A model generated the notes under the pieces. That model had not been told where the DNA came from, searched no databases, and saw only the letters and a program-made list of their open reading frames with translations. Of a stretch of DNA of 64,000 nucleotides, positions 19,409 to 63,607 are shown one piece after another; position 1 is the first letter of the stretch, and the number at the start of each line of letters is the position of its first letter. Source of the DNA: Spinacia oleracea (lineage: Eukaryota > Streptophyta > Magnoliopsida > Caryophyllales > Amaranthaceae). Both the position numbers and the translations under genes were made by a program. The DNA lies in assembly GCF_020520425.1 (NCBI RefSeq), contig NC_079492.1, positions 115,665,157 to 115,729,156 on the forward strand, in the 5' to 3' direction.

Positions 19409-20806
19409 TGAAGGAAATAATGCCCTTGGTCCAAGTATGCATTCTATGTTAAGTCTAATAAATGCGGTTCAGTATTAATTAACAAGTTAATAATTCAGTG
19501 AGATCAAGTGAGCTGAATGCCTAGCTAGAGGCCGCTTCAGTTCAAGTGGAATTAATGATATTAATCCACAGCTTACTCTTGACTGAACCCGTAGGGTCAC
19601 ACAAATAGTACGTAAACGGATCAAGTATTTAATGGCATTAAATACTCCATCTATGAATATTCGGAACCGACGGATCTTGGTTTCAGTGGGAGCTAAGATC
19701 GTCACAGGCAAGAAATGAATACTCCGGAAACGATGATATTGCCGGAAACGGAAATATGGATCGTATCGGAAATATAAATATTATCCAAGTCGTAGATGTT
19801 GCCGGAAACGGAAACATGGTACGTATCGGAAAATATTATCGGAAATGGAAATATTACCAGAATCGGAAATATTGCCGGAAACGGAAATATTGTCAGAATC
19901 GGAAATATTACCGGAATCGGAAAATAATTCCGGAAACGGAAATATTAAATATTTGTTCGAAACGGAAATTAATTCCGGAATCGGAAATATTAAATATTGT
20001 TCGTATCGGAAATGAATTCCGGAATCGGAAAATTTAATCGGAAGCGCATCGTACGAATAAGCATCGGACGAGGCCTGCCGGACGAGGCCCAGCACGAAGC
20101 CAGGCCATCGCCCAGCAAGCCATGCGCGCCGCACAAACAGCCACGCCAGGCCCAGCGCAAGGCCAGGCCCAGCAGGCCGTGGCAGCGCGCACAGCGCGCG
20201 CAGCGCGCGCGGGCGCTGCGTGGGCTGCTGCTCGTGCGCACGCATGGGCGGCCCATCGTGGCTGCCGTGTGTGCGTGTGTAAGTGTTTGTGTTCGTGCAC
20301 GTTTCCTAAAACGTGCAGAGTTCGGTTAATGATTAAATTCCTAATTCTATTTGATAAATTAATTAAATTAGAGTTCTTGTAGGATTCTAGGTTTAATCAA
20401 TTTGTATCTGAATAGGATTCCAATTCCCTTTCCATACCCCTATAAATATGTGGCCTGGGTTCACAATTTATAACAGAAGTTTAAAAAGTATTCAAAAGTG
20501 AGTTTTTGAGAGAAAAATTCAGCCACACATCTTGCTCAAAAGTGCCGAAAATTCTAGTACCTTAAGGGCGATTCTAGTTGGTCAATCTTAAGGCGGATCC
20601 GGACGTGCTGTGGACTATCTACGGAGGGACGACACTTGGAGTCCTAAAGACTTGTTCTTGTTCGGTTCGGGCGCAGCTAGGGAAGGCACGCAACAAAGAG
20701 TATGCATCTAATCTATGCTAAATGATTATGTGTAAATAATATGTTTTCCTGGGTTTATGGTTTTTCCGCATGATTTATGAATTGTCATATGTATCATAAC
20801 CTAACA
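19409..20806 (+). repeat. 3' LTR of the copia element
   Basis: Equal in length (1398 bp) to the 5' LTR. Three differences were noticed: near 10834/19828 (A versus G), near 10965/19959 (T versus A) and near 11208/20202 (A versus G). It ends ACCTAACA, then the TCAGA duplication, then LINE sequence. Confidence 0.93.
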
Positions 20807-42006: not shown

Positions 42007-42539
42007 TCTCTTCTATATTAAAAAGCCCCAACACCCATCACTTTGGCGTACTTTTTTTGGAAATTTTTTTGGACAACTTTGCCCTTCTTTGTTTTACTCC
42101 GTATGTTTTTTTTTTCTTATGTTATGTTACCTATATAAAATAGCCGATCAAAACAATATGTTTTGTCGTAATTTTTCCTTCCAATTAAACCCCTCCTCTT
42201 AACAATTTATTATAGATTTATATCATTACCTATATAAAAAGCCGAAAGAGTTACAACATTTTGCGTTATTTTTTAATACTCCCTTTGTAATTTTTTTAAG
42301 AGTTACATGTTGATCGTCACAAGTGGGGTAGTTGGGACAATAAAGAAATATAAATAAAATAAGTGGGGTGAAAAAGTTAAAAAAAATGAAATTATTTATA
42401 ATTTAAGTGGGGTCATAGAAAAGTAAAAATAATAAACAATTGGGGAATGAGTGTAAAAGTTACCAAAGATGGAATTGTGACTCATAAAAAAGTATCGATC
42501 GGATATAGTAATTGTGACTCCTAAAACACTACAAAAATA

Positions 42540-42720
42540 TAGAGCAGGGAGGGCGACACTTTTTAAACAAAGAGGGCGCTTAAATTATCGCCTTTACTTA
42601 ATTAACCAACTAGGGCGACATTATATCGTTGTCGTACACATAAACAATAGGGGCGAATAGAGTGGGGTCGCCCTTTTTGTTTAAAATACGAAGGCGCGCG
42701 TCAAGAGTTGCCCTCTTTGA
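42540..42720. repeat. Left subterminal repeats of the CACTA element
   Basis: AGGGCGA/TCGCCCT motifs recur in both orientations (for example GGAGGGCGACAC, AGAGGGCGCTT, TAGGGCGACAT, GGTCGCCCTTTT). They match the right subterminal array. Confidence 0.8.
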
Positions 42721-43801
42721 TCAGATGACTTTATGAAAATAATAAAACATAAACCTCGAAAATCCCAAATTCGTTATCGGCCATTATGACTCTCCTACTC
42801 TTCTGCCAGAGTTCTTCAAGAAACTCCAGACACAAACCCTAAAATCCCAAATTCGTTTTCTCTAGACAAAAATCAATCGATTCTCAGTTTTTTCGTTGCC
42901 CTCTCTCTCCCTGATTCTCTCCCGAATTCCTTCCTAGATTTTCCTAATTGATTGAATTTCTCAACTTCGTCTATGCTTAGTTCGTAACCTCGGGGATTTG
43001 TTCGAAAAAAGCCCGATTTATGCTGAGATTTGTTTGAGAGAAGATCAATTTCCGCAGATATTTGTTCGAGAGAAGGCCGATTTCTGCTTACTGGTATCAT
43101 CTACTTCTTTTGATTTTTCCATGAATGTGGCAAGTGTTCTACACTTCTACTTTCATTGTTTTATCTTGTATGGTTAATGTTGTAATTGATGAAATTATAA
43201 TATGGTTAATGTTGTAATTGATATCATGAAGATTGCGTTTTATTGATTTGGTTGTTGACTTGTCGGAATAATGTTCAATTTGATTAGTTATTGAATTTGT
43301 TCTCGTTGGATTTTAACAGAATTGTTTATTTGTTTGGTTGTATTGTTCATCAAAACAAAATTTAAACTAATTGTTTATTTGTTTGGTTGTACACAATCTG
43401 AATTGTTTATTTGATCCCAATATTGAGGCTGAAGGTGCATCAAAACTCTCGTTAAAAACCTATTTGTCAGACTAATCCCAGTGTTGCAATGACTACAAAC
43501 AATACCGCTCCCTTTTTTGTTAGGGAAACTAATTAAGGGATAATGTTACTGACTTAGTAAATCATAATATAACCAAGACCTTTCTATATAAAATTCACAA
43601 ATTTAAATGTTGAAAATCCCTTTTCTAGTGGATCTAATCCTGCCCCAATTTTCCAATAGATATGCTTTGTTTGGTTATCAGCAATTTGCCAGACGAATAA
43701 GTGGATTCAGACAAACTAGCTTTTTGCAGGAGTAAAGCCAAAGTGCTTATTGAATTGGAGTCTAAGTCTGTAACTAGTTTATGGATCAGCTTGTGCGTAT
43801 T
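42721..43801 (+). other. CACTA left non-coding region, UTR-like
   Basis: Pyrimidine-rich CTCTCTCTCCCTGATTCTCT followed by three related TTTGTTCGA(A/G)-containing repeats (42990-43080) resemble a plant 5' leader, then AT-rich, probably intronic DNA. No conserved protein was read before the DUF946 segment at 43802. Confidence 0.4.
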
Positions 43802-44233
43802 ATCACATTAAGCCTATGCTTGCAGGAACATCTGACTTAGCTATATGGTTGTTTTACCCTTTTAATGGACCGTCTAGAGCTAAAGTTGGGGTTTTTAACT
43901 ATACCTTTAGGTGAAATAGGGGAACATGTAGGGGATTGGGAACATGTAACCTTAAGGATTAGTAACTTTAATGGTTTGTTAAGGAAGGTGTTTTTTTCAC
44001 AACATGCTGGGGGTGAATGGGTGTACCCTACGGACCTTGAATTTGGTGAAGGTAATAAGGTTGTAGGGTATGCTTCTTTGCACGGTCATGCTACTTACCG
44101 TAAACCAGGGGAGGTGTTACAAGGGTCTACTTATGTTGGAATAAAGAACGATACAGAGAAGAGTAACTATGTCTGGGATACTGGTAATGGTTACAAGATC
44201 ATCTCTGCGGATTATCTAGGCACTGTTACCTTG
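43802..44233 (+). pseudogene. Captured DUF946 (Vps62-like) gene fragment
   Basis: The sequence reads KPMLAGTSDLAIWLFYPFNG then, after a one-base frameshift in GTTGGGGTTT near 43888, IPLGEIGEHVGDWEHVTLRI, FFSQHAGGEWV, YASLHGHATYRKPGEVLQG and NDTEKSNYVWDTGNGYKIIS. These are consecutive conserved blocks of plant DUF946/Vps62-related proteins. The segment is contiguous with the TNP2 remnant in the same frame and has no role in transposition, so it is best read as a host sequence acquired by the CACTA element. The N-terminal half of the DUF946 protein is missing. Its frame, apart from the frameshift, stays open for 125 codons. Confidence 0.85.
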
Positions 44234-46040
44234 AAAGCTTGAAAGGATTTGAAGGAGATGAATGTGCATCATAATTTAATTCCTATTAAGATAGGTGATA
44301 AATATGCCATCCCTAGAGCACCATATCAGTTGACATCTATAGAGAGGCGTAAAGTATTGGAGTTCTTGTCCAAGGTTAAAGTGCCAGATGGTTACTCTTC
44401 TAACATAGCTCGATGTGCAAGTATGGAAGATGGAAAAATCTCAAACATGAAAAGTCATGATTTTCATGTGTTCTTGCAAGATTTGCTTAAACCGGCATTT
44501 CAAGGTATCTTACCTAAGGAGGTGCTAGAACCTTTGGTTGAGCTTAGCTTATTTTTTAAGCAATTGTGTTCTAAAACTCTAAAAATTGATGTGTTGGAGA
44601 AGATGGAAAAGAGTATTGCAATTACTCTTTGCAAGCTTGAAAAGGTATTTGTTCCGGCTTTCTTTGATATTATGGTCCACCTTCCAATCCACTTGGCCAA
44701 TGAGGCCAAGATAGCTAGCCCAGTGCAGTATCGTTGGCAATATCGGTTTGAAAGGTAACAAGTTATTCCTTTATATTAATATGTGAAGTTATTTTTTTAT
44801 TGCAACATGTTGTGTAATGGTTACCGCTTGTAGGGAAATGCACACAATGAAATCTACTGTGAGTAACAAAGCACAACCAGAAGGCTCGATAGCTAATGCA
44901 CGCATAATGGAAGAATGTCTTTCCTTTATATCTAGATATCTAAATGGGATTGAGACCAAGTTCAATCGCATGAGTAGAAATGACATGGATAGGCAAGAAT
45001 CTCTGTTGTTTAAGTTATCAGCTTTCCAAAAGAAGGGGAATCCACTAGGCAAAAGAACATTTAAGCAATTGAGCTTTTTGGATTGGAAGCAAGCTCAATT
45101 GTATGTTCTGATGAATTGTCAAGAAGTACAACCATTTATAGGGTAAGCTATCATCTTTTCTATAACTATTTTATTACAAGTGTCAAGAAGTGCACTAACA
45201 CTTGTATGTTGTACAGAGAGTACACCACTATACATGGGCCAAAACCAAGTCTAGTTGATTGGTTTCGATCTCAGGTAAGTGAACCGAGTGTAGTTCATTA
45301 ATTTCCACTTTATATATTATAATTTAAGCTACTTAAGAAATTCATTATCATAGATTTGGAAGCTTTACACGGAGGGGGATCCAAGAGTAACAATTGGTTA
45401 CTATCATTGTCACGAGGCCCGAGTAAGAGTGTGAAAAGCTATCAAGGATACTATGTAAATGGGTATCGCTTTCACACTAAGAAGCGTCAAAGAAGGCGAA
45501 AGACGCAAAATAGTGGAGTAATTGTTAAAGGAGATGCAGAGAGTGGAGAAAAGGACTTCTTCGGGGTTTTGAAAGAAGTCATAGAACTTGAATATGATGC
45601 ATCAAATAGTGGGGATACAGAACCTATTGTGGTGTTATTTCGATGTGTTTGGTTTGATGTTTATCGGCGAGGGATAAAAAGAGATAAGTTTGGCGGCGTA
45701 AGTCTCAATTTCAAAAAGTTCTTAGGGACCAATGAGCCATTTGCTATGGCATCTCAAGTAGGGTAAGTTTATTATGTTAGGGCACATAATGAGCCAGATT
45801 GGAGAATTGTTATTAAGACTGTCCCTCGTAATTTCTACAATTTCCTATTGTTGAGGTAGATGGCTCTGATGATGATCATGACGACGTTGGATTGGACTTT
45901 GAAGTACCAAATTCAGTGGAAGGTGATGGAGATGATGGAGATGATGATGATGATGATGATGATGTTCTCTTACCAAGAAATGATGTTCCTCCAGAGTTGG
46001 TAATGCAAGTGATTTTAAGTTGGAAAATGAGGTTGTGAAT
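44216..46040 (+). pseudogene. CACTA TNP2-type transposase remnant (DUF4218 + DUF4216)
   Basis: Recognisable exons: about 44216-44754 (KDLKEMNVHHNL, VPDGYSSNIARC, the DUF4218 core KSHDFHVFLQDLLKPAF, FFDIMVHLPIHLANEAK and PVQYRWQYRFER), 44834-45142 (MHTMKSTVSNKAQPEGSIAN, FNRMSRNDMDRQ), 45217-45274 (EYTTIHGPKPSLVDWFRSQ) and about 45354-45840 (DUF4216: LSLSRGPSKSVKSYQGYYV, NGYRFHTK, TQNSGVIVKG). Damage: TGA at 44240-44242, a phase break at exon 4, TAA at 45764-45766 inside SQVGxVYYVRA, and a 1-base shift near 45846 before a D/E-rich tail. The N-terminal catalytic region (Transposase_21) is absent; the captured DUF946 segment occupies that position. Confidence 0.85.
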
Positions 46041-46243
46041 GAAGAGGAAGAAGAAGAAGATAGTGAGCAAGATGAGAAAAGTGAGTCTTGTTCCTAATTT
46101 CAATCTGTTTGCATCTGGTTTTGACCTTAATATCTGCCCCTTCTTTACTTTCTGGTTTAGTTGTTTGCATCTGGTTTTGACCTTAATATTACATAAATTT
46201 CTAATTTATAGGTCTTGTTCCGTTGTTTTCAGAAGTTGATTTG

Positions 46244-49200
46244 ATGGCTTCTAGCTCAAGAAATTTGCCCGAAGGTGAGTATATATGATTGGTTTCTAGC
46301 ATTGTTATTAGAATCTGTAAACTAACCACATTCTGTGGAGCTTCTGATATCGATTTCTGATTTTACAGGAGAAAAAACAATCAATCTAGACACTCAATCA
46401 TCATTATCGCAACTAGACTCTACCACTCAACAACCTAAGAAAAAAAGACAAGGTATATAAGTATTGTTATTACTCTCATGTTTGATATCGTAAGCCTGCA
46501 GACATACTAATCTAGACAGATTTTGAGTCACTTTAAGGTCAGTTATGCCATATCTCTGTATTTACAGTTGCTCTCTAAATCTGGAAATTAAGAGCCATGG
46601 ATGATAAAGTTTATAAAATCTATCTGGATGCATGCACTTCCGTTTTCTATATTTGGGCGATCCTAAACTTAATATTATTACTGTCTTGCTTCATCTTGTT
46701 TCCATTATTCAATGTTGCCATTAATTTTTTTTCTAAAGTTTATTTCGTTGAATTTCATATCCTTAATATTGGTTAGATATTATTGGGACAAACTAATATA
46801 GAAAAATAAAAAATCTCTTAGGACAGTGGGATTACTTAATGAATGGAATCAAATGGGACAGTGGGATTACTTAATAAAGTCTTAAAAAAAGTGAGTTATT
46901 CATAATCTCTGTTACTTTCTTTGACCCCCTGTAGACACCTACATTTGTCCCCATTTCCGAAAGGGAAAGGTTCGATGATGAAAGCATAAATCTCCACTTG
47001 ACAACGCATCTCCTATAAAATAAACGAATCTCAATTCCCCTTTTCATTTCACCCGAAACCTGCTATTTATGGAAACCTGCTAAAAATAGTAACTGCCGTA
47101 AAAGGTAGCTTCTAAAAGTGGCAAATCATAAAGGATAGAAAACTGTCAGAATTAGGTGTTGCATTCCAACATAAATCCTAAATGAGATAGAAAACTGCGA
47201 GAATCCTATTCCTAATATGATTCGGAAATAAGAGTTACGTATTAATTAAAATCCTAACGAGCCTAGAGTTCGTAACGGGCCCAGACGCATTCCGTCATGA
47301 AATTGATACGCACTAAAAGACTGGATTAAGTCTCAAACACTCCGGATTCTAGGAATCCGAATCTGACAAAGAAACGGCCCAAACAGCAATTTCAACGCCC
47401 AGCCCTGGGCGCTGAAATTGCCTGGATCCTATTTTCCACGCCCAGAGCTGGGCGCCGAAATCTTTGACGCCCAGCCCTGGGCGCTGAAAATACCTGGGAC
47501 GTGTTTTTTCCTAATTCTTTGTGGATTAGAACTCTGCAATTCTATCTTTCCACGAACTCTTCCCTATAAATACAGCCCCAAATTCGACGTGAAAAGAACA
47601 CACAACAACACAACAATTATATTCTGAGTATTGACTCCAACCCTTAGCCTAAGCCTCACGCTGCGAAACTGTTCACGCGTTCTGTCGCAATCGATCCATA
47701 AATCGAACAGAACGTATCATGTCCCATAATTGAGATTCGTTAAATAAAAAGGAGAAATAGCAAAGTCAAAGTGGTTAGTTTTCTGAGAACCGTGACGCAC
47801 CTCTCAAGGGTGCGTCGTAATGTGTCCCTTTTCGATGATTTAACTGTTTTCCTCGCCCTTTTTATGAACTGTTAAACTAACTAAATCTGATTGTTCTATC
47901 ACGCCTAACAAATATAATATTTTTGGGAAATCGGATTATCATTCTAGGTCCCTTAATGCTATTTAAATCAGATAATCACGATCGAATTAGTATTATATGT
48001 TGCATATTGCTAAAATCAACTCAGATTAGTTTAATAGTTAACGCATGTCCCTTCAATTATTTATGCTGAGCTAGTAAGGATATCATGCCTCTGGAGTTAT
48101 CGACGAGCGAAGCACTCCTCTCGGAAGTTACAGTCCCCCGAACCCTCAATCTCTACCTTGTGGGTGTATGTTGAGAGATCCCCACACCAGGGATCACAAG
48201 GGAACCTACGGCCGTCGTGGTCAAACATAATTGCACTCCCTTTATGTCACGATAACCGGGTTTTGTCAGTTTTTCTCATTGTCGTTAAAAACTGAATGAC
48301 GACTCCTATATTACTAGTCAATTGGGTGTATACTCATAGGAAATCCAATTACACTTGATTGAATAAAAGAATCGTCACACTCACGAGGGACGAGGTCACG
48401 CATTAGCCTCGTGCTTTTTCGACCCCCCTCACAGTGGCGACTCCGCTGGGGAATAGTGAAGGAAATACTCGTGCTTGTAGGTAATCAAAATAGCCGAAGG
48501 GTGAAACGATCCTACCCCGCGTTTATTTCCCCATCAAGTTGGGACGACCTGAAAATCAGCATATTAATGTGAACGGGCAGAACCGCATAACGAATCTCGG
48601 CTCCCTCGGGAGTTGGGACTAAGGATACCTTTTTTCGCCAATAGGGGGGTGCATATGCCGTGCATGTTTCCCACTCGGTACTTGTGCAGGTAGTACACCT
48701 ATCCCGAACCCAATCGCTCGCTCATTAGGTCCCTCTCGCCTGCATGCCCCCTTGGCTTGCACTTGCGGGTTGGCCTCTTGAGCGAAATTCGTCTGTTGAA
48801 GACACTACCTCGACCGGGGCATGTGTTGAATCTACGATAGAAGCGGTACCAAGCCAGGCGCAGATAAACTACCCATAGAAGCCTATCATAAACTACTTGA
48901 CATATTTAATTTTCAAATCCATGTTTGTAATGTAGTTATGTGTAGCAAAATATGTGATTGTGTGTGACAAACTATCCTAGAAAACCAACGACCTTAAAAA
49001 TTGTCCAAACATTCATAAACTAATTTTCCAAAGAGTTATACCGAAACACGTGTTCCGCAAACCCGAATGATCGCCACAAAAATAAGCGACGCTCGGGATG
49101 GCCTGTAACGAATCCCACAAACGCTGCTACGCGTAAAGGACATTATTAGGCAAGCACGCAAATCGAAGTCGCATAAACAGAAGACAGAAAACGAGAACCA

Positions 49201-52200
49201 GCCAGGGACGCATTTTCAACGCCCTTGGCTGGGCGCCAGAATTTCTCACGCCCCTCGCTGGGCGCTGAAGTTGCTGCTTGGCCTTCTGGTCAGGCGCAGC
49301 AGCCTCGGTGCCCGCGCGAAAGGAAAATACGTAGCGCAAAAAAATGTTCGTAAAAAGAATTGCTACGAGGGCGTATGAAAAGGCACTCGATTCTAAAAGC
49401 GACTTATAAAAAATTAAATAACTCTTTGTGTCGTTGTTAGGCCTCCTACGACGACGATGTTCGGCACCCAAAAACCGAACATGCCAATCAAAATAACTTT
49501 GAATGTTACATGGGCAAAGTATTCAAAAAAATGATGTTCGAAAAAAGTTTTCAAAAAATAATGTTCAAATAAAAAATAAATAAATCCGAGTCTAGACTAG
49601 GCTATGCCAAAGTACAATCCAAATCCTAAGTCTTAGTTGTCTTATCCATAGAATCGGTCCCAATGCTTGGTATCGTTCTGCAAGTTAAAAGGTTAAACCA
49701 TGTTGAGTCTCCCTTCCTAACATTTAAATCAATAAAGCACCCATATGTAATTGTCATCCCTTACTAAGAATTTACGGCCTCAATACTCTCTCACCAATAA
49801 AAAGAATATATTATAGTATTTGCAAAATGGAAACGGTCACATTCTGGAAATTATTCCCCCATAGTCGCACAACCCCCAAAGTGAACCTAAGGTGTCAATA
49901 CCATTGGCAAAGAAAAAATTAATGGCCTCAAGGCTTATAATCACATTGGGTCACGACTATCATAGTCCTCTCGAGTCACTCACTCCTTGAAATACTACTA
50001 AGTACGGACTAAAAGATTTTCCATGAATGCAACATGACCAACCATGAAAATACCCAAATCGGCATACCGTAAGGCTACCATTGGGGTAAAGCAATACACG
50101 CTAAGAGGGAAGCCGCACTAATGATTCTAGTCTCGCAAAAATAAAAATTCGACCTCCCCAACTAACTACCTTGGCAACATTAAGCAAAATGGCGCATGAC
50201 AAATGAACACCCAAGGGTTAAAATCTAAAGTGTCAACAAACGAAAGGTATGGTCCAATTAGCCTAAGTCTGAGAGTCGCTTGGTCAAGTGTTATAGGCTT
50301 ACGCCACGTCATTATTTTGAGTCTAGGCCACCTCCTTGTATTCATACACGGGTTATAATCAGAAAGATTAATGAAAGTTCGAGTCTAAATCACAACTTCC
50401 AATTAAATCCCAGAAACTGGAGTCTGAAAAGAAACAAAAAAAATTATTTTCGATGTAATTCTTTCGTTAGATTTCAATAAGGTAAAAACAACATTTTGAA
50501 TCTACGCTATTTGCACATTTTAAGAAACGACTAAATACGCTTGCAAAGTAAGACAATTAAAGGTCCACTATAGGCCTACCAAACGAGGCTCACTCAGTCT
50601 CGCCTCGTGACTCAAAGACCACAACCATCTACCTTTTAGCCCAAATAAAAAATTGAAGGATTTATGTTGGGGAAAAATCCCAAGCAAAAAGAGAAAATAG
50701 AAAGAGAAAAGAGCGAGCCGTGAAATACTTAGCCCGTACCTCCCAAAGTGCGAAATTTACCCAAGTAAACGAAGGAAAAGAATTGAGTCAACCAATCCAA
50801 ATCATAAAATTCTACGATGTCTACCCTTTCCAATCCTTATGCTCTTACACGCCTTCGCTCTGGGGTCCCTGTTCAGCTCATTTAACCCATCCATGTTCTC
50901 ATTGCCATAAACCAAGAAACCATTACCTCGACTCTTGTTCCTGAACTTGTTGTCAACTGCAAACCACGCACGGCCATTGACACGTGCGTCATACCCATTA
51001 TTTCCAAAGCCCAAAACCTGTTCTTACACCACCATTAGCATAATGAACATATAACTTGTGTGGATACATCCTGTTGATCGATATACCCTTGAGCTGTCCC
51101 CATACTACTCATTGGCCTTGATTGATGTAAACTCGTGACACTAGCCTGAGGCTGTAAAATGTGAATCCTAGCAGATGTAATCCTTATGCTTGACCAATAC
51201 CTAACTTATCCTATCTCATTCAACCCATCTTTCAAAGCCGTCTTGAGTCACAAATAAATAAATAAATAAAAAAGACAAATGAAAAGTACATTCTACGCTC
51301 AACGTAAAAATGAAAAAAAAAAAATGTAAAAAAGCAAACTTTGCAAAGCGCCTTTAAAAGTTAGTCTAAAAAGAAAAAAGAAACATTTAGCGCACCAAAA
51401 AAGATCCGCCCAGAAGTCATTTTCAGCGCCCAGAGCTGGGCGCCGAAATCTTTAGCGCCCCTGCCTGGGCGCCGATTCTCTCTGCTTGCTAAAATTTGTC
51501 CAGAAGTGCTCGTCATTTTATCCGCACATACACGGAACAATAACGAACACTTGGGGGGGTACAGCACGTATTCAGATATACGTACCACCAAAAAATACAT
51601 GTACTCAAAAAAAAAATATAAAACAAAATTTTGGCAGCAGATTTAAATAATAATAAACTTCACTTATTCTACCATTTCAAATAATATGTTTCCACCTCGG
51701 AACGTACTTGTTTAAAATCCTACAACATTCTCATCAATGGCAGGCCCTGTGCTCCTTTTGAGGCAAAAAAAGGCGCTCGTTCCCACCTGTCTTCTTCCCG
51801 GTAGAGTGAAAGAGGTTTTTTCACTTCGGCATTCTAAGAAACCATTTTCTAGGCTAAGAACTACGCAAGACCTGATTCCAAATTAAATCTATTTAAGGCG
51901 GATACGTAGGCAATCCATGATTCGGTCCAACCAATATTAAAGCCTATAGAAAAACAAGAATAAAAATAGAAGTCCCTTATTGAAATTTAATTACTTGCAA
52001 TCCAAGTCGAAAGAAAAATTGAAAGCACGAAAAAGAATCAAAGTCATCAAGATGCCAAAATGAGCACACATCGAAAAATAATAAGGGCACGTACCCTTGC
52101 CAGAAGGAGCACTCACACTCCTAGGCACTTAGCCAAGACTCAAAAAGATCGCTTTGCCTCAATTGAATGGGGGCTAGCGCAAGCGTCCATGACCTCTAAA

Positions 52201-55200
52201 ATACTCGACTTGACCCTCCCTAAAGCGAACTAACTCAAAGACTTTCTTTCACCACTAGACATAGTAGTTCGCTTAAAGACCTTGTTTCACCACTAGACAC
52301 AGTCATGATCGCCAACAAGTAATAAAGGCAGTAAGCTTGCAATAAAGAGAATTGTTCTACGGCATTGCCCCATCGTTCCTTCGAACTCAGGGCACCCGTT
52401 CATGGTAATTCAAATGCTTGCGAATCCCCTTTGAAAAAAATAAACAGACATTGTCAATAGGACTTGGCACTCAACCAAGGCTCACCCTACTCAGACATAT
52501 GACACGGGCATCTGAAATCGAAATCTAAAAGCATCATTAATGGGAAGACATAATAGAAATTGGGGGCTAAAAAATTGAAATGGAAGATCTAGGGAAAGAA
52601 CTAAGTATACCTTGACCTTTTGTACGGACATACACCAAGCAAATCTAAGTCAACTTGAAAACGGTTTATATTCCCGCAATTCTGGAAAAGATGGCCCTAA
52701 AAGCCTAAAGCATATGCCAAACGGACACAAGTATATCTTGATGCCTGCACCCTGGCCTCCAGCAAATCCTTAGACAGCATTCCAAAAATCGTAACAGTAT
52801 TTTGATTCACTCAAGTAATCCTGTGCGAACCCTTCTATAAGTCAACTTACTTAGGACACCTCATATTGTACACAGTAGGATTCGGATTTTGATAAATTTC
52901 AAATAATTTTCAAAGACTTTTTCGAACATAATAAAGTGTCGTTGGTTTAAGCTAAGTATGTGTTTATCTCGATGTTGCAAAGTGAATCGAAAAGATTTCT
53001 AAATATGATTATGGGTAAAGAAAGGCACCTAGCTTTTGGTCAAGGCATACTCAAAACATGTGACTACCTTGACCATGGCAATGTCGCACAATACGACATT
53101 TACAAGAGAAGTAGCAGGTCACTACTCGAACGTACCTCGCACTAAACGAGTCTGGTTCAAACTATTCATGATCCATGTCACCATGAATGCATAAAGACGT
53201 ATGCAAAGTATTATAGCACCAAGCCAATCCCGTAGCTACAATTGGGGGCTTGAGAAAAACACTCTAAAAATGCTCGAAATGATGATTTTATCGCAAATTC
53301 TCGACGCTAATGCTATACATATGTCATAGGGGCTCAATCCTAAGCTTTAATCGTGCAAAACGAACCTTAGAATGGCTACAACCCCTCCCAAATTCTAAAG
53401 CACTACTTAGAATATATAAAGTCACCCCACTAACAAGGGTAACTGAAAATCGCGAGTCACCAAAACTCCGATCAAACCACTGCACATAACGCTCGCCCTA
53501 TAAAGCGCCCGTTACACAGTCTACATCGTTCCAAAGCAAAAGCGGAAAAAAAAATATTGTCAAAGTTCTACCCAGAAATCATTTTCAACGCCCAGAGCTG
53601 GGCGCCAATATCTTTAACGCCCCAGCCTGGGCGCTGATTCTTTCTGCTAGCCAAGTTTTGCCCAGATATAAAAATAAGAAAGAAACACCTATTACTCTTC
53701 GCATCGAACGAAGTAATAAGCCGTGCAAACCCACGCAGAAGGTGCTACACTTGTTCGAACACCTGAACGAGGCGTGATAAAGTACTCCAATGCAGAAAAT
53801 AACAATGATATCCCAACACCTGGAGGAATGTTCTAAGACACGTCGTTAGGCCACACAAGCCTACGTCGCACCATAAAATTTAAACCATCCCACAGTACAA
53901 GTCTAAAAAGTAAGGCACATTGCACTAATGCAAGCACGACCAAGAGTAAGAGGCAAAGACTACTTATCGCCCAAATTCAAAATGCAAGCCACACGACTTC
54001 CACATTAAGGATTGAAAGTAGCAAAACATTACCTGCCACGGAAGGGATAGCTCGCACCTACACGAGCGGAACCCCAAGGCATCTTTCTCGAAAGAACCTA
54101 CAAAAATCGTACGCCAAAAGGAAGCATCCCGACATGCATACTTGGGGGCTCCAAGCTACGAAACGAACATAGCAAAATAAAAAGAAAATGTCTGAACGAT
54201 CAAGAAGGGCACGATGCTTGAGCCCACTTCATGAATTGGCCTGAACCCTATCAAGCTTCTAAGCAAACTATTCAAAATCAGTCATTGCTCAAAAAATTAT
54301 TCAAGCAAACTGATTAATGGACCGCACACAACGGCCATTCTATGAACGCTCGTTCGCACATACATATCATCATTCTAAGTATCGAACATTCACGAACGCG
54401 TTTAAAAGGAAAAATATACAACAACAAGAGCGGTCAAAGTCTTACGCCTCAAGGTATGTTCCTCGGGCCATATAGACTCTCCCAACTATCGCAATAACTG
54501 TACACCTTAAGAGCAACAGTTCCTTAAAATAATCGCCCCAAAGCGACAAGCACCGTAGTCCACCAATCGGCTACGGCTTCTCAAGAGAATCATCACGTTC
54601 TAAAAACAAAGGAAAAAACAAAAGAGAAGAGAATACATAGAACTTCCAAGAGGCCAACTGTGTCACCAAGAAAGCTCGCCAGGAATTATTTTCAGCGCCC
54701 AGCGCTGGGCGCCGAAATCTTTAACGCCCAGGCTTGGGCGCCGAAAATGATCCCATACCCTCTCTGACTTCTATAGGGCCCTGCCATATTCATTTGACTT
54801 GAAAGTTGCCGAAAGTTGCACCTCACGGCTTTGTTAAGAGTAGCACACCGCTACAAAGATCGCTCGCACTTACGAGCACAATCCCAAATACGATCAAGGA
54901 CATTACAGAATGCGTATCCCCAAGGAACCTCTTTGACAAGAAATGACCGTCAAGCATGAGTGCTTGGGGGCTCGAAAGAAAATATATTATGCAAAGTTAA
55001 AAACAATATTCCCAGACTGCGCTGTACGAAGTCCCGTGTTTGGATGTCTCAAAAAATAAAACCGGTTTACGACCTCAAGACAAAGGTCGCCGTTGAGCCG
55101 TTGATACTTATACATAGTCTCCTAATCAAGGACCCAGGTAGTGGAAAAATTGAGCCGAAAAGACTAGCTCAAAACCATAAAAAGGTGATGACCACGAGAC

Positions 55201-58200
55201 TATGGTCCATCTAAACACATTGTCAACCCACATTTAGGTTGCAACTAAATCCGAGCATCCCTCGGAAGAATTCGCTCCTATAAGAATGAATAAAAAAGAA
55301 ATTCTCAAAAGAAATCACAAGAAAAAAATGAAATAGGGACTTGCCCACCTCAATCGGGCAACATCGCGATACGCAAATCCCAAATCGAAAAGACGAATTC
55401 AGGTTCGCTCACCTTCAGCGAGCGGGGCGTCCACCCTTAGCGGACAAGGCTCGCCCACCTTCAGCGGGCGGGGTCTGCGTCACTAGCCGCGCAGGTCCTC
55501 AGTTTTCGAAAAATAAAGTCTTCAAATTCAAAATAGGCTCTCCATCTTTAGCCGGCGGGGTCTACGTCACAAACCGCGTAGGTCCTTATTTTCAAAAAAA
55601 ACAAAAGAACTTCAAAACAGACTCGTCCACTTCTATCGGACGGGGTGTCCACCCTTAGCGGACAGGCTCGCCATCTTTAGCCGGCGGGGTCTACGTCATA
55701 AACCGCGTAGGTCCTTATTTTCAAAAAGCACAAACAAATTTCAAAATAGATTCGTCCACTTCTATCGGACGGGGTGTCCACCCTTAGCGGACAGGCTCGC
55801 CATCTTTAGCCGGCGGGGTCTACGTCACAAACCGCGTAGGTCCTTATTTTCAAATTTCAAAAACAGATTCGTCCACTTCTATCGGATGGGGTGTCCACCC
55901 TTAGCGGACAGGCTCACCATCTTTAGCCGGCGGGGTCTGCGTCACTAACCACGCAGGTCCTTAGTCGCTGCAGCGATAACTCTTTTCGGTTTTCCCTTTT
56001 TCCAAAAATTAAAAGGATTGGTTTTCCGTTTTTCCAAAAAAGAATGATGTGCTGGATTTTCCTTCGTTTTACGTCCCATAAAAACAAGGGGGTTTTCTCG
56101 TTTAGCTAGCCCTAAAAATGAGAATCTTTAAAAACATTTTTACCTCGTGATTGGGCTTGGCCAGGCCCAATTACACTTTATAGCTTTGATTTCGAAAACA
56201 TCTGTAGCTACTCCCAATGACAAAGTAAGGGAGTTTCTACGCACCTTTAGATTCTTCCAATGATAAAGTGAGGAAGTTTCTATACTATCAGTTGACAAAT
56301 CCCAATGACACGTGAGGGATATGTCGACACTTCAAAGTGATGACCCTTAAGTCAAATGTTATCACTCGGGGGCTCGTGAGACCCTCGCCAAAACAGGTCA
56401 CTATGGCTTGTGCGACGCACTCCGTCTAATACTTTGACCATCGTCTTACTCCAAGACTCAGTCAAAGTGGGGGCTAACTGTAGATACCTACATTTGTCCC
56501 CATTTCCGAAAGGGAAAGGTTCGATGATGAAAGCATAAATTTCCACTTGACAACGCATCTCCTATAAAATAAACGAATCTCAATTCCCCTTTTCATTTCA
56601 CCCGAAACCTGCTATTTATGGAAACCTGCTAAAAATAGTAACTGCCGTAAAAGGTAGCTTCTAAAAGTGGCAAATCATAAAGGATAGAAACCTGTCAGAA
56701 TTAGGTGTTGCATTCCAACATAAATCCTAAATGAGATAGAAAACTGCGAGAATCCTATTCCTAATATGATTCGGAAATAAGAGTTACGTATTAATTAAAA
56801 TCCTAACGAGCCTAGAGTTCGTAACGGGCCCAGACGCATTCCGTCATGAAATTGATACGCACTAAAAGACTGGATTAAGTCTCAAACACTCCGGATTCTA
56901 GGAATCCGAATCTGACAAAGAAACGGCCCAAACAGCAATTTCAACGCCCAGCCCTGGGCGCTGAAATTGCCTGGATCCTATTTTCCACGCCCAGAGCTGG
57001 GCGCCGAAATCTTTGACGCCCAGAGCTGGGCGCCGAAATCTTTGACGCCCAGCCCTGGGCGCTGAAAATACCTGGGACGTGTTTTTTCCTAATTCTTTGT
57101 GGATTAGAACTCTGCAATTCTATCTTTCCACGAACTCTTCCCTATAAATACAACCCCAAATTCGACGTGAAAAGAACACACAACAACACAACAATTATAT
57201 TCTGAGTATTGACTCCAACCCTTAGCCTAAGCCTCACGCTGCGAAACTGTTCACGCGTTCTGTCGCAATCGATCCATAAATCGAACAGAACGTATCCTGT
57301 CCCATAATTGAGATTCGTTAAATAAAAAGGAGAAATAGCAAAGTCAAAGTGGTTAGTTTTCTGAGAACCGTGACACACCTCTCAAGGGTGCGTCGTAATG
57401 TGTCCCTTTTCGATGATTTAACTGCTTTCCTCGCCCTTTTTATGAACTGTTAAACTAACTAAATCTGATTGTTCTATCACTCCTAACAAATATAATATTT
57501 TTGGGAAATCGGGTTATCATGCTAGGTCCCTTAATGCTATTTAAATCAGATAATCACGATCGAATTAGTATTATATGTTGCATATTGCTAAAATCAACTC
57601 AGATTAGTTTAATAGTTAACGCATGTCCCTTCAATTATTTATGCTGAGCTAGTAAGGATATCCTGCCTCTGGAGTTATCGACGAGCGAAGCACTCCTCTC
57701 GTTAGTTACAGTCCCCCGAACCCTCAATCTCTACCTTGCGGGTGTATGTTGAGAGATCCCCACACCAGGGATCACAAGGGAACCTACGGCCGTCGTGGTC
57801 AAACATAATTGCACTCCCTTTATGTCACGATAACCGGGTTTTGTCAGTTTTTCTCATTGTCGTTAAAAACTGAATGTCGACTCCTATATTACTAGTCAAT
57901 TGGGTGTATACTCACAGGAAATCCAATTACACTAGATTGAATAAAAGAATCGTCACACCCACGAGGGACGAGGTCACGCATTAGCCTCGTGCTTTTTTGA
58001 CCCCCCTCACACCCCCCAGTTGTGTATGAGCAACAATGTAAACCAATACACCTTTTATTCATGTATTTATAACACGGACTGCTGGAAGTACAATCCATAG
58101 ATGATAGCCTCACAGTAGACTTGCTGCAGTTGAACTTCAAGATAGTATTACTGTCGGTAATGCTAAATGGTAAGGTCTGATTCAGCCAGATTCCACCAGA

Positions 58201-60433
58201 TCGTAAATCAGCTCTTGTACAACTGTTCCTGTAGAACTCTTGTGAACTGATCATTAGCTGTTGGATCTTCGGGGAAATAGATGTGATAATGTATGATGAT
58301 CCATTGAGAGTGTCGAGCCATAGCTTTCCTGTGGTGCACCTCACTTTATAAAACTGGTCACCACATCTTTGTGAAGTGCTAAGTGGATAAGGTACTGGGG
58401 TTTTCCCACAATCTGGACACCAAAGTGTAGCTACTGCTTATTGAGTAACAGAAAGTAGAACTACTACTACAATTTGCAACTGTACCAGAAGCTTATACTT
58501 CAGCTTCGCGTGTGTCATCTCTGTTACAGTATCAGACCGGTGCTAAAAAAAATTTATACTGCCTCTTCCATGGTCATGGACTCAAGGTCTATCAAAGTTC
58601 TGGGATTTGTAAGTGTTTAGGAAATTTGAATGGTGTTCTCTCAAGTGGACTTCAGATATGACAAACCTTACTTTTTCCTATTTGAAAAACAAACAAAGAA
58701 TATAACTCATTCCAATGAACCAGGGTTAGAAGTATAATTTTTACCATTGATTGATAATTAAAAAGTAGTTATTGCCTAGGAACACTAATGACAGCAGGTT
58801 GGCTGTAACTTCCTAGGCATCAGCATTATTAGTTTTATCGCGATCAGTAGGTTTCACCGAAAAATATGATGTGATGTTGCAGGGTGAAGTTATAGCCTAG
58901 ACTAGGACTTTCATTCGTAGTTGCAGTAGATAGACTAATAGACTATATGTATTGTGCTGGTTGATGCCGCAGTAACTAAGCTTGAGTCTGCAAGAAAGTT
59001 GCTTTATGTTATTGCATAGGAGTAGACAGGTTCTGATATGGCTGCCCCTGACTTATTTTATTTGTGTTCTTTTTTATTTAGGTCCTTTTCGAGGTCCAAG
59101 TAGAGCACTTAAATATAAAAAACTGAGAAGTACCGAACCAGGAAAGGTTAAGGTTCATATTCCATCCTCATTGGGAGCTGCTGTGGGTAAGAATGCAAAC
59201 CAATTTGTGGGTGAATGTGCTGATTGGGTGAAGGAAATATGCCCTCTTAATGTTCAAAGCTGGAATGATATGCCTGAAGACGCAATAGATCGGTTATATA
59301 GTAGGATTCATGTATGAAAACCCCCAAAATTTTTGTTGATTCTCAGTAAGTTCAAGTTATTGTCTTGTTAGCAGCTGATATTTTTCTACTGACTTTTTTG
59401 TAGGCAAAGTTTGACTTCGGTGAAGGTGCACACATTCCAAAAGCGATACACATTCAGTGCTCTAACCTTTATAGGCATTGGAGAGAAAGGTTGAAGGCTG
59501 ACCATTTTACAAAGTGCAAAAGTTTGAAAGAAGCAGAACGTGCTTGTCCAGCAACTATAGACCTTACCCAATGGAGGTGGCTTATATATAATTATTGGGG
59601 CAATCCTAAACAGAGGGTAAGTATAGTGAATATGCTTATACTATTAGCCTTATAATAACTTTATTAATCCAATATGTTAATGTTGTAAATTTAAGGAAAA
59701 GAGTGAAAAGAATCGGGCGAATGCTCTTTCAAAGAAGATCAAGTCCGCATGTGGTGCCAAATCAACCGCTAGGATAATTTATGAATTGGTGAGCTTCTGG
59801 AAGTCTTAATTTCAAATTCGAATTCCTCTCTGGTTTGTTTACTCATTTGTGTACTTTAAGTTTCTAGTTTGAATACTATCATTTTACTTTTCCTAGGAAC
59901 TTGAGGCAGAAAATGAGCAGGAGGTCAATGAAGATGAGCAGGAGGTCAATGAAACTAATGGTGATCCTATATATTTGAAGCTATGGGAAAAGTCAAAGAG
60001 GTAATTGGATTATTTATATCTAGTGCATCATTTTTTCTCTTATTGCAAATTTTTATCTTCTTAGTTTTATCACCATAGGCATAAAAATGGGAAGTTTGAC
60101 GATGAGGCCGAAATCAAGTACAAGTCATTTAAAGAGTTACATGAAAAAGAAGTCAGAGAGAAAGGAGCTGACAATCTTATTTTGGATATTGCCTACAAAG
60201 AAGTGCTTGGATATCGTTCGGGTTATGCACGTGGGTTAGGTAAAGGCCACCCTATGTTATCCAAGGATGGGAAGAAAGGAAGAGCAGAGCTAGAAGCTAA
60301 TGTGGAGCATCTGAAGAATGAAAATAGCATGATCAGAGCAGAATTTGAGTCTCATAAACTGGAGGCTAAGAAGAAATAGCAAGAATTAGAACAAAAGCTT
60401 CAGTTAATCATGGACAAGATTGGCTTGACATAA
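46244..60433 (+). CDS. CACTA TnpA-like protein (plant transposase Ptta/En/Spm type), intron interrupted by a LARD
   Basis: Exons 46244-46274, 46369-46452, 59082-59311, 59404-59616, 59696-59788, 59897-60000 and from 60079 join in frame to 351 aa, ending at TAG 60377-60379; reading past it reaches TAA 60431-60433. Conserved blocks are RGPSRALKYKKL, VGECADWVKEICPLNVQSW, FDFGEGAHIPKAI with LYRHWRERLKADHF, TIDLTQWRWLIYNYW, KKIKSACGAKSTARI and the hallmark LGYRSGYARGLGKGHP. The C-terminus is a predicted coiled coil (LEANVEHLKNENSMIRAEFE). TnpA-type proteins bind the subterminal repeats. The second intron (46453-59081, 12.6 kb) contains the LARD and the GUB_WAK fragment. The premature TAG removes only 17 residues, so the protein may be near-functional. 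A further upstream exon could exist. Confidence 0.8.
46925..46929 (+). repeat. Target duplication CCCCC of the LARD (left copy)
   Basis: CCCCC precedes the 5' LTR and recurs at 58012-58016 after the 3' LTR. The low complexity makes the duplication less decisive than a mixed sequence would be. Confidence 0.65.
46930..48433 (+). repeat. 5' LTR of the LARD
   Basis: Starts TGTAGACACCTACATTTGTC, ends GACCCCCCTCACA. It contains three CGCCCAG...CTGGGCG palindromic modules (47396-47490) and a TATA box TATAAATA at 47565-47572. Confidence 0.9.
47565..47572 (+). promoter_or_regulatory. TATA box of the LARD LTR
   Basis: TATAAATA in the context CTTCCCTATAAATACAGCCC, about 75 bp downstream of the GC-rich palindromes. 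The copy in the 3' LTR lies at about 57143-57150. Confidence 0.65.
48435..48452 (+). other. Primer-binding site of the LARD
   Basis: TGGCGACTCCGCTGGGGA begins one base after the LTR. This type of PBS is seen in Tat-lineage plant gypsy elements; the cognate tRNA was not determined. Confidence 0.7.
48453..56463 (+). other. LARD interior, non-coding
   Basis: No gag, protease, RT, RNase H or integrase motif was found in any frame. It contains four dispersed copies of a palindrome module (near 49210, 51425, 53590 and 54695), TTGGGGGCT-type motifs (53220, 54140 and 54965) and a tandem array at 55395-55965. Many short segments resemble tRNA- or gene-like fragments only by chance. Confidence 0.7.
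55395..55965 (+). repeat. About 120-bp tandem repeats in the LARD 3' interior
   Basis: Four to five degenerate copies share GTCCACCCTTAGCGGACA, GCCATCTTTAGCCGGCGG and GTCTACGTCACAAACCGCG. Each block is an imperfect palindrome (GTCCACC...GCGGAC; GTCTACG...CGCGTAG), so the array can form serial hairpins. Confidence 0.8.
56464..56478 (+). other. Polypurine tract of the LARD
   Basis: AAAGTGGGGGCTAAC immediately precedes the TG of the 3' LTR. Confidence 0.7.
56479..58011 (+). repeat. 3' LTR of the LARD
   Basis: 1533 bp. It carries four rather than three CGCCCAG...CTGGGCG modules because a 29-bp unit is duplicated at about 56988-57045. It otherwise aligns end to end with the 5' LTR. Confidence 0.9.
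58012..58518 (-). pseudogene. Captured GUB_WAK galacturonan-binding protein fragment (antisense in CACTA)
   Basis: On the minus strand, ATG 58518-58516 opens a hydrophobic signal-peptide-like stretch (KLLVQLQIVVVVLLSV). An in-frame TAA follows at 58440-58438, then WCPDCGKTPVPYPLSTSQRC, GDQFYKVRCTTGKLWLDTLN, GSSYIITSISPKIQ and a cysteine series (FYRNSC, LKFNCS, MDCTSSSPCYKY, LHCCSYTTGG). This is the N-terminal galacturonan-binding (GUB_WAK_bind) domain of wall-associated-kinase-type proteins, including start codon and signal peptide. The LARD interrupts it at CCSYTTGG. No kinase or transmembrane part is present. Codons are clean except for the single stop. Confidence 0.85.
58519..59081. other. 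CACTA TnpA intron remainder
   Basis: Non-coding DNA between the captured fragment and TnpA exon 3. It may include the 5' leader of the captured wall-associated-kinase gene. Confidence 0.4.
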
Positions 60434-60963
60434 ATAAGGTAAGTTTTAATATTAAAGTGAAATTATTTTGAATATAAACTCATGGGAAAGGGGGGGGTAA
60501 ATGCAATCAATTTATGGGGAGATGCTGCCGAAATTAAGACGTGGGTGTTGTGTTGGGGCGGCTGATTGCAGGAAGTCAGGGAGGGTAGCTAGTTTTGCAG
60601 TTACAGTTAGATGTGTGGTGTTGTTGTTGGTGCTTTGTGGCAGTGTGTTGGGACTGGTTTTTTTGTCTTGCGCCTGAGCTATCAACAGGTTGTGGTTATG
60701 CAGCTACTGTTTTGTAGTCAACTGACATAAGTTGACTCTATGGGGTTTGCTTTGGGGCTGTCTTTTTTTTTTCTATAATAGTTTTGGAGTGGTGGTGTCT
60801 ACTGATTTTCTACAATATCATTAACAATAAGTTGTGCTATCTCTATCCATACACATTGATCAGGTAAAACTTCAATGAACAAACATACTCCATGAGAATT
60901 TTCACGTGTGGAAATGTCCGCACAAATCAATATCATATTGCATATATCTCACTGAAGAGAACA

Positions 60964-61111
60964 TTAATGATGAAAGCTGGCTACTGTGTAAGCAATCTGA
61001 TTGAGTAAGCTCCACCTAGTATATAGGCGAAAAATAAGAAGTGATGTTACACTTTCAAAAGATAAAGGGTTTGCAAGGAAAAGCTCTTCCCCTGCTGCAT
61101 CTTCATCTGTT
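60964..61111 (-). pseudogene. Unidentified exon-like fragment, possible third capture
   Basis: On the minus strand, an acceptor-like TTGATTTCAG is followed by an open 49-codon stretch (TDEDAAGEELFLANPLSFES ... SLLIFRLYTRWSLLNQ) ending at TAA 60966-60964. The composition is that of a normal protein, in contrast with surrounding AT-rich DNA. I do not recognise the family. It could be chance. Confidence 0.3.
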
Positions 61112-62177
61112 CTGAAATCAAGTATATATAAATTAAAACAAGCAAAAGATTTGTTATAGAACAACTCCACAGAAAAAAGTAACACAAGTTTCAACAGGGG
61201 CAAATAAGTTGAGACACGTCAGACAAAATATTGTGATTAGGTGTTTGTTTTGTTCTTAAACTTTGAATGAAATCAGTTTAATCACCAGTTCGATCTGTTC
61301 ACCCCTAACCTTGTTATCTGAATCCTTTATCTCTTTCTGTTTTTGTTCTTCCATGTGTTTTGTTATTCAGTCTATGGCTAGTAATTTGAATCACGCACGC
61401 CTTTTTTCGACTCTTGGTTGTTGTATTTTATGACAGATAGGTATTTTCATAGTTAAATTAGTCTTAGTTATTATCTTTTGTGACGGATTGGTGTTTTTGA
61501 ACAATGCTAATGTACTTAGCAACAGTTTGAAGTATTACGACAAATCTGGGCACTTGTTATTTATATAATTCCATCTTCGCATCATGCTGCAGTCATGGTT
61601 GTGTGTGCATCATGCTGCACTCATGGTTGTTAGATTGTGCTGAAGACATGCTGCTATTAGGATTTTTTATGGCTAGCTACTGTTCTTATTTTGGTTTAGC
61701 AAGTGGTGTTCTTGCTTTTTTGGTTTGGTTTAACTGGTTTAGTGCTTCCCATCAGGCTGCTATTCTACAAATTTTTGTTACCATTAATCCCCAACACGAA
61801 TGACATGGTGCTGCATATTCAAAGCAAGTCAACGTAGGAATTGCTCATCTCCGTATTTTCTGTCTCTATAACATAATGGATGCATCTGATTCATTTGTGT
61901 CTTGGAAGAGCAAACATTGTCTACTAGTGGACTAATAGTTGTTCTAAGTATGCTTTTTTTTTTTTGTGTTTACCAGAGAGAAAATACATGAAACTAATTG
62001 TTCTATATTTGTTTACAGGAAATATGTTTTTTTGGCCTTGACGAGTCTGCTGATCGGTATATCTTTTGTTGCATGAGAAGTTGGTTTTCCTGCTAGCTTC
62101 ACATACTTAGTTATGCTTAGGAGCTTTATGAAGTTTTATGAACTATTTTGTTAAGTTGTTGGCTTGCTGCACTCAGG

Positions 62178-62179
<2 letters not shown>

Positions 62180-62265
<86 letters not shown>
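62180..62265. repeat. (TA)n microsatellite
   Basis: About 43 uninterrupted TA units. It reads as an artificial I-Y protein repeat and has no coding meaning. Confidence 0.95.
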
Positions 62266-62267
<2 letters not shown>

Positions 62268-62399
62268 ATTTTTTGGAGGCTGTAAAAGAACTTTCGAATG
62301 TGCAAAGATTTGTTATTGTTTGTGGTATGAATTATGTCATTGTCCTATATCAGGTTCTTGCCTACCTATCAGATTATTTTTTAAAAAATAAAATAATTA

Positions 62400-62740
62400 T
62401 CAAAGAGGGCGACTTTAGTTGTTGTATTTGATTTTGAACAAAGAGGGCAAAACGCTTGCCCTTCTTGATATGATTTAAGAGGGCGACCAAATGTACTCTG
62501 CCGTCCTTGATTCTTACCAAAGAGGGCGAATGTGGATGCCTTTTTTGAATAAATCAAAGAGGGCGAAGAAAGTTGCCCTGTTAGATCTCAACCAAAGAGG
62601 GCGACTTTTAATGTTTGTCCTGAAAAGCTAATACAACGACAATAACAGGGCGACCTTGAGGGCGATTCTAAGGTCGCCCTTATAGCTTAGCAGGGCGATA
62701 ATTTTAACTAAGAGGGCGACTTTTTTCGCCCTCTTTGATC
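62400..62740. repeat. Right subterminal repeats of the CACTA element
   Basis: At least eight AAAGAGGGCGA or inverted TCGCCCTCTTT copies within 340 bp, matching the left end. Probable TnpA binding sites. Confidence 0.85.
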
Positions 62741-62774
62741 TTATATGTTGTAGTGAAAAAAGACGAAGGGGGTA

Positions 62775-63607
62775 TGATAGATATGATTATGAGATATCGT
62801 AGTATTGGATATAGTAGTAGTATACTATGTATTAGATAAGAGTTCATCCAAAAAGGTTCATGGCGTTGTAATTAATTAAGTATCAATATAATGTAGGGAG
62901 TTTTTAAGATAATTTTGAGGCCGGCATTACTTCAAGCACGTTGCCTAATTAGAAAATTCAAATGAATTTATAATCTTGATTATTTAGACATATGTTAATA
63001 TGCATGCAATGACAAATTTAAAAATTTCATACAAGCATGTTGTCTAATTGCAATATAACAATGTTTTTATGTTATAGAAAACAACCTAATAAATATGAAT
63101 AGTACTCCTTCTGTATTTAAATAGGAGATACATTTGACAGGGCACGAGTATTAAATAAGAATAGTTGAATGAAATAAAATAATAAAGCAAGTGGAGTTGG
63201 GTAAATATTTTAATCAAGTAAAATAATTGGAGACCATTAAATTTTGGATTAGTGTGGGGTGAGGGTTTATGAGATTAATTGTTTAATATGGTAGTGGGTT
63301 ATAGCGTAAATTAGATTGTCCAACACGTGTATGGCACGTGCTTCTCACTAGTATTGATAAAAACAATTTCATTATTTAAAATTCAAGACAGATGTTAGCA
63401 AAGTAAATAACCACATTAGAATTTACCGTCTATGATCATGTATAAAAATAAATTATTCAATAATCTATTATGCAAAAATATCATTAGTAATTTTGTACTC
63501 GACCATGCTTAAAAACATAGATGCATTTATCACTAAAAAAAACATTGAATAATGTACACCTTTACACTTATGATATATATTGATCAAATAGTAACTAAAT
63601 ATCGTAG
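62775..63607. other. Right flank of the CACTA/MITE nest, AT-rich
   Basis: Contains the putative Helitron right terminus (to 63351) and a lone MITE-like end TACTCCTTCTGTATTTAAAT near 63102. No gene seen. Confidence 0.4.

Follow-up and report, generated by a model that had tools for sequence, protein, structure and literature searches.

The DNA analyzed in this work is a 64,000-nt stretch of the Spinacia oleracea genome (C6:115665157-115729156), hereafter the window. It was compared with an 894.2-Mb assembly in 242 contigs, in which nearly all of the genome matches listed are located on contigs C1 to C6. The window contains a complete CACTA element (Table 1) that begins with CACTAC at 42527 and ends with GTAGTG at 62755, and the trinucleotide AAA is present on both sides (42524-42526 and 62756-62758). 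The element thus carries the CACT(A/G) terminal inverted repeats (TIRs) that define the CACTA superfamily, and the flanking AAA fits the expected 3-bp target site duplication (TSD), albeit in an A-rich context. Subterminal repeats of the GGGCGA type, also expected of the superfamily, were found three times in 42401-43200 and nine times in 62001-62900 in a plain count with no shuffled control. The 3' end was located via a related copy on contig C5 (L050), which ends in identical sequence and is flanked by GGT on both sides. Together, the insertion amounts to 20.2 kb, of which 11.1 kb is a nested long terminal repeat (LTR) retrotransposon; its LTRs differ at 19 of 1,504 aligned sites (1.26%), and CCCCC is found on either flank. 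An earlier note on this DNA had placed the locus inside a CACTA element, and the ends we found agree with that, but the element runs to 62755 instead of ending near 46040. Within the nested retrotransposon, palindromes of the CGCCCAG..CTGGGCG type are repeated at 47395-47507, 49201-49288, and 51408-51495. The downstream CACTA part possibly includes exon-like frames of a second gene, and three frames of this region yielded no Pfam match. With both of its ends present, the element might still move using the transposase of other copies.

Table 1. Features of the CACTA element in the window
Feature	Position	Strand	Basis or remark
Complete CACTA element	42527..62755	+	5' end CACTACAAAAATATAGAGC, 3' end TATGTTGTAGTG
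CACTA 5' arm to left junction	42527..43784	+	Comparison with L050 and L057
Left junction	43783..43784		2-bp overlap GG common to element and host gene
Captured DUF946/Vps62 coding-exon fragment, 447 bp, sense	43783..44229	+	Pfam, DNA search
Right junction	44228..44229		2-bp overlap AC common to host gene and TNP2
Remaining TNP2 exon, N-terminal part of DUF4218	44228..44758	+	Pfam PF13960, E 2.3e-27
TGA codon within TNP2 part	44240..44242	+	CGA in 19/19 other loci
Open frame with rest of DUF4218	44787..45143	+	Pfam
DUF4216 and acidic TNP2 C-terminal region	45323..46085	+	Pfam PF13952, E 1.4e-10
Nested LTR retrotransposon, 11.1 kb	46930..58011		LTRs about 46930-48433 and 56479-58011
Downstream CACTA part	58549..60650	+	Homology to copy L051 at 58549-58739 and 58878-60650

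Between the 5' arm and the transposase remainder lies a segment of a Vps62/DUF946 gene (Pfam PF06101, E 3.5e-51). When the genome was searched with the DNA of 43640-44760, matches were obtained at 32 places, and all 32 candidates were scored. The whole query was matched only by the window itself. The gene locus L012 (C4:78241756-78243321, at 78.24 Mb) matches 43783-44229 only, at 96% identity; relative to it, the captured piece has two 3-bp gaps that keep the frame and a +1 frameshift near 43890. In 17 copies, the match begins only at 44228 (96 to 99% identity). The 5' arm up to 43784 was matched at two places, one of them within the C5 copy, and the remaining places comprised two diverged copies, along with nine weaker matches (69 to 90%). 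As in gene-capturing CACTA elements, a host coding fragment is therefore enclosed by the element ends and a related host gene, L012 being the nearest, resides elsewhere in the genome.

At the left junction, the element sequence ...TTTATGG meets the host sequence GGATCAG..., and at the right junction the host sequence ...GTTAC meets the element sequence ACCTTG.... An overlap of at least 2 bp is expected from a random join with a probability of 0.16 per junction, so the two overlaps speak only weakly for template switching. The DUF946 and TNP2 frames coincide at the right junction, a match expected by chance in about one case in three. The DUF946 segment does read into DUF4218 in frame, as had been claimed, except for its first ~36 codons, which the +1 frameshift near 43890 splits from the rest and places in another frame. 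The claim that a lone TGA separates the two parts did not hold, since the true junction is at 44228/44229 and the TGA is found 11 bp into the TNP2 part, where L050 has ...DTLKARKDLKEM.... CGA is found there in all of the other loci (20 aligned rows representing 19 loci, L037 and L050 being one locus), and the ideas that the TGA terminates the captured gene or marks a boundary were rejected. Other copies with the same DUF946/DUF4218 junction, which the earlier note had proposed to look for, were sought genome-wide using a 30-mer that spans the junction and allowing up to three mismatches; the junction occurred once in the 894-Mb genome, and the reversed-pattern control gave no occurrence.

What the fragment has replaced can be read from L050, which matches the window on both sides of it. 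In L050 the two matching parts are separated by 2,587 bp (L050 1942-4528), containing the region upstream of TNP2 together with its start codon and codons 1-594 of a 734-codon frame (L050 2747-4948) with the Transpos_assoc (E 4.1e-20) and Transposase_21 (E 9.4e-93) domains. L050 is itself shortened after this frame and is thus a relative rather than a complete parent of the window element. In 17 of the 19 related loci (including L037, which is L050 itself), homology to the TNP2 N-terminal half persists for 1.3 kb or more, and in most of the 17 it reaches the end of the compared DNA. The DUF946 piece gave no match in any of the 19. The earlier note had named copies with a complete TNP2 N-terminus and no DUF946 at this place as one of the observations that would speak against its reading, and the 17 loci are copies of this kind in that they run on into the TNP2 N-terminal half and have no DUF946. 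As for two individual loci, TNP2 homology in L022 (C6:15.13 Mb) extends for 0.6 kb only and is lost inside the Transposase_21 region (L050 3930), and L027 1-1478 (C1:105.18 Mb) ceases to match the TNP2 N-terminal half as little as 22 bp upstream of the position of the window's junction; both loci run on in other sequence.

Consistent with the comparison with L050, a tblastn search (E <=1e-3) of the window with residues 1-559 of the 734-residue L050 TNP2 frame returned no match. Of the TNP2 domains, DUF4218 and DUF4216 are present in the window copy and the N-terminal half with Transposase_21, present in L050, is missing; the full set (Transposase_21, DUF4218, and DUF4216) is required only of autonomous CACTA members. 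Both lines of evidence support the earlier statement that the normal transposase N-terminus is absent and that host sequence has replaced the catalytic half. In the tblastn search, a weak match to TNP2 residues 560-599 (40% identity over 40 residues, E 4.9e-4) was also seen on the minus strand at 2147-2266 of the window, which may be what remains of another CACTA element. The remaining part of the transposase, which had been described as intact, is in fact decayed. It shows 16 differences (12 substitutions and 4 single-base deletions) that are absent from all 11 aligned copies, these being 11 of the 17 close copies, with the 6 that are incomplete over the stretch omitted. Three single-base deletions break the frame of DUF4216 and the C-terminal region, which is open in L021 and L025.

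To find the origin of the captured piece, the genome was searched with the Pfam Vps62 profile, which gave 11 matches, all 12 candidates being scored. Profile positions 321-470 are covered only by five full-length or nearly full-length genes, one of which has a stop, and by the captured fragment. Between the fragment and L012, 14 codons differ, and 11 of the differences are synonymous (dS 0.121, dN 0.0087), the dS estimate being a rough one that rests on 11 changes; two of the 14 codons, one synonymous and one not, adjoin a gap and depend on the alignment. In a neutral simulation of 14 changes (20,000 trials; transition-to-transversion weights of 1, 2, 4, and 6), 3.1 to 4.1 synonymous changes were expected, and 11 or more were reached in at most 0.04% of the trials (P <=4e-4). 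The element itself is 0.9 to 1.6% diverged from its relatives in five stretches, close to the 1.26% that separates the nested LTRs, and its outer 5' arm, with 17 mismatches in 776 columns (2.2%), shows the largest distance to the nearest compared copy. At a divergence of 1.41%, 1.4 synonymous differences would be expected versus the 11 seen (P 2.6e-7 for at least 11). The synonymous excess in such a young element indicated that most of the differences arose between two working genes before the capture. The dN/dS analysis that had been proposed for the DUF946 part against its donor gene could thus be run against the nearest gene, yet that gene is not the direct donor.

Indeed, present-day L012 was rejected as the direct source: a dS of 0.121 exceeds the element divergence of 0.009 to 0.022, and L012 carries an extra Asn that is absent from its paralogs L009, L010, L011, and L013 and from the captured piece. 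The latter in turn has one private in-frame 3-bp deletion and so lacks a residue that all five genes possess. No gene closer to the fragment than L012 was found in the assembly, either in the Vps62 profile search (12/12 scored) or in the DNA search (32/32 scored). Two other candidates related to L012 were considered. An ordinary L012 allele is an unlikely source, given the nucleotide diversity of 0.48e-3 reported for S. oleracea in the accessible part of PMC8902716. A sex-linked counterpart was set aside as well. Judged from contig order, C4 may be the sex chromosome, and L012 is located at 78 Mb, whereas the sex-associated region has been reported at 92-103 Mb of chromosome 4 (PMC8668906, available text); from the dates given for the X-Y strata (1.63-1.98 Mya at r 2.8e-9; PMC8902716, same part), our own arithmetic yields an expected Ks of about 0.01, far below 0.121. 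Thus, the fragment probably derives from a sister gene of L012 that was functional and is absent from the assembly. Our tentative view, held with slightly less than even confidence, is that the transposon retains a piece of a functional DUF946 gene that was either a paralog since lost or a gene of another Spinacia lineage that arrived with the element. Introgression from wild Spinacia has been reported (PMC8902716, as far as its accessible text goes), and it is possible that the source gene was brought in this way.

Does the chimera encode a hybrid protein? In the DUF946 frame, a TAA at 43771-43773 precedes the left junction by about 10 bp, and an ATG is first met at 43816, inside the fragment, with none outside it. 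An open frame with a start codon, as a functional fusion would require, is not present, given the TAA, the +1 frameshift, the TGA, and the deletions. No hybrid protein is predicted to be readable from the locus now, it is unlikely that one was ever produced, and the DUF946-TNP2 frame is, as judged from its sequence, most likely without function. The earlier suggestion of a once-functional hybrid protein is therefore not supported, given the upstream TAA, the internal first ATG, and several lesions in both the fragment and the transposase remainder. It would be highly improbable that this is a real fusion gene, the DUF946-DUF4218/DUF4216 product of which was made, kept by selection for a while, and lost to later decay. 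Such a gene would agree with the sense orientation of both parts, with their common frame at the junction, and with the excess of synonymous differences from L012 in the captured piece. However, the TNP2 half is just 0.9% diverged from a non-chimeric copy, so unless gene conversion homogenized this half, the fusion is much younger than a dS of 0.121 implies and the selection predates the capture. The single occurrence of the junction, the missing start codon outside the piece, the in-frame TAA upstream, the frameshifts, and the TGA also argue against it. Nor do we give much credence to an assembly artefact that fused a DUF946 read with a CACTA read, an explanation we regard as scarcely conceivable: the junction is found once in the assembly, as such an error would produce, but the piece differs from all of the assembly's DUF946 genes (nearest dS 0.121) and is thus not a misplaced copy, and both ends of the element surround it. 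We observed the replacement with its two ends, its single occurrence, relatives without the fragment, and subsequent decay; the chimera is real, but it is ordinary debris of CACTA gene capture, and very probably dead debris from a gene other than the L012 of today.

How the capture debris arose can be outlined as follows. A break would have occurred inside a CACTA element, perhaps at an attempted excision. Faulty repair would then have removed about 2.6 kb (the upstream region, the TNP2 start, Transpos_assoc, and Transposase_21), and 447 bp would have been copied from a coding exon of a DUF946 (Vps62-like) gene that was functional and joined at the 2-bp overlaps. Repair of the break by strand invasion and template switching (SDSA-type filler DNA) is a route to which we give even chances; since the source gene is absent from the assembly, copying from it is something that we infer and did not observe. 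In rice, filler DNA at transposon excision breaks combines a deletion with foreign filler and has been attributed to SDSA and microhomology joining, with fillers of 1-123 bp at excision sites (PMC4423477, accessible part), compared with 447 bp inside the element in spinach. In the left arm, separate segments match separate copies, 43397-43784 being 98.7% identical to L050 and 42596-43369 being 97.4% identical to L057. These patchwork matches and the 2.2% divergence of the outer part indicated a mosaic structure already in the parent element, and the fragment may have been gained and the TNP2 part lost on different occasions.

Two other readings rival the proposed route only, not the interpretation as capture debris. 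According to a model described for Pack-CACTA elements (PMC13317346 and PMC8903248, available text), two elements insert in tandem into one gene, here a DUF946 gene, the inner ends are lost, and the outer ends move jointly. The left and right arms of the window element are indeed closest to different copies, and the source gene is missing from the assembly, as expected if it had been destroyed; we nevertheless consider this route unlikely because no relic of the remaining DUF946 gene was seen among the 12 of 12 Vps62 candidates scored. The entire L012 locus also served as a query, in a search that is weak because a flanking repeat flooded it; among the 40 of 1,313 candidates scored, no relic of a lost sister gene was seen either, and weak relics may have been missed. 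In a two-step history, host DNA would first have been captured upstream of TNP2, and only through a later deletion would the DUF946 remnant have come to adjoin the middle of the TNP2 exon. The different host-like fragment that L050 has in the same neighborhood (about L050 2039-2372) would fit with this, but the genome searches yielded no copy in which DUF946 precedes a complete TNP2, and we regard this history as rather doubtful. The SDSA-type, tandem-insertion, and two-step routes are not firmly separable.

The host-like piece of L050 was inspected on its own account. Located upstream of TNP2 (C5:2897638-2897971), it shows 86 to 90% identity to parts of the gene located at C1:33.67 Mb, a frame of which matches the plant bHLH ACT-like model with E 2.7e-5 and 24.8 bits, under the cut-off of 27.6; the L050 frame at the piece gave no bHLH match. 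The bHLH-like piece is probably an independent capture in the same region of the element, and host DNA seems to have entered this CACTA family more than once.

Pack-CACTA elements are a class of short elements not known to contain transposase sequence. Like the Pack-TYPE elements (PMC8903248, accessible part), the spinach element has CACTA TIRs and a TSD around captured coding DNA and is non-autonomous; unlike Pack-CACTA elements, it is large and decayed and keeps part of TNP2, with DUF4218 and DUF4216 remaining between its ends. The Jozin-type CACTA elements of Chenopodium, a member of the same plant family, also captured host fragments. In the available sections of PMC8978399, their ORF 1 is described with TAD, Transposase_21, DUF4218, and DUF4216, captured fragments of Neprosin and AP2 genes are reported from the region 5' of ORF 1, and some regions of the elements seem capture-prone to the authors; neither DUF946 nor Vps62 occurs in that text. 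The Chenopodium fragments lie outside the coding sequence, whereas the spinach fragment takes the place of the TNP2 N-terminal half and adjoins the TNP2 exon in frame. Soybean Tgm-Express1 (PMC1947982 and PMC2613891, accessible text) likewise has CACTA ends with host gene fragments, but these are five unrelated fragments that are spliced as extra exons into host F3H transcripts, in contrast to the single fragment and transposase remainder of the spinach element. Host fragments in CACTA elements are thus an established kind of structure (Tgm-Express1, PMC1947982; Chenopodium, PMC8978399; available parts of both). What is distinctive here is that the fragment replaces part of TNP2 and adjoins its exon in frame and that the source gene is missing. 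In the accessible portions of the open-licence literature, we found no report of DUF946 within a CACTA element.

The locus represents a clean and datable CACTA capture, for which a single assembly provides both related copies that lack the filler and a gene closely related to the source. It illustrates that repair debris can present itself in raw sequence as an in-frame host-transposase fusion, and the mismatch between element age and synonymous distance suggests that transposons can hold gene pieces that are missing from an assembly. If the source was indeed a lost or foreign DUF946 gene, defective CACTA copies could serve as archives of lost host genes. Elsewhere in the window, two 1.4-kb direct repeats (10415-11812 and 19409-20806) share 99.8% identity and may represent the LTRs of a retrotransposon that inserted very recently.
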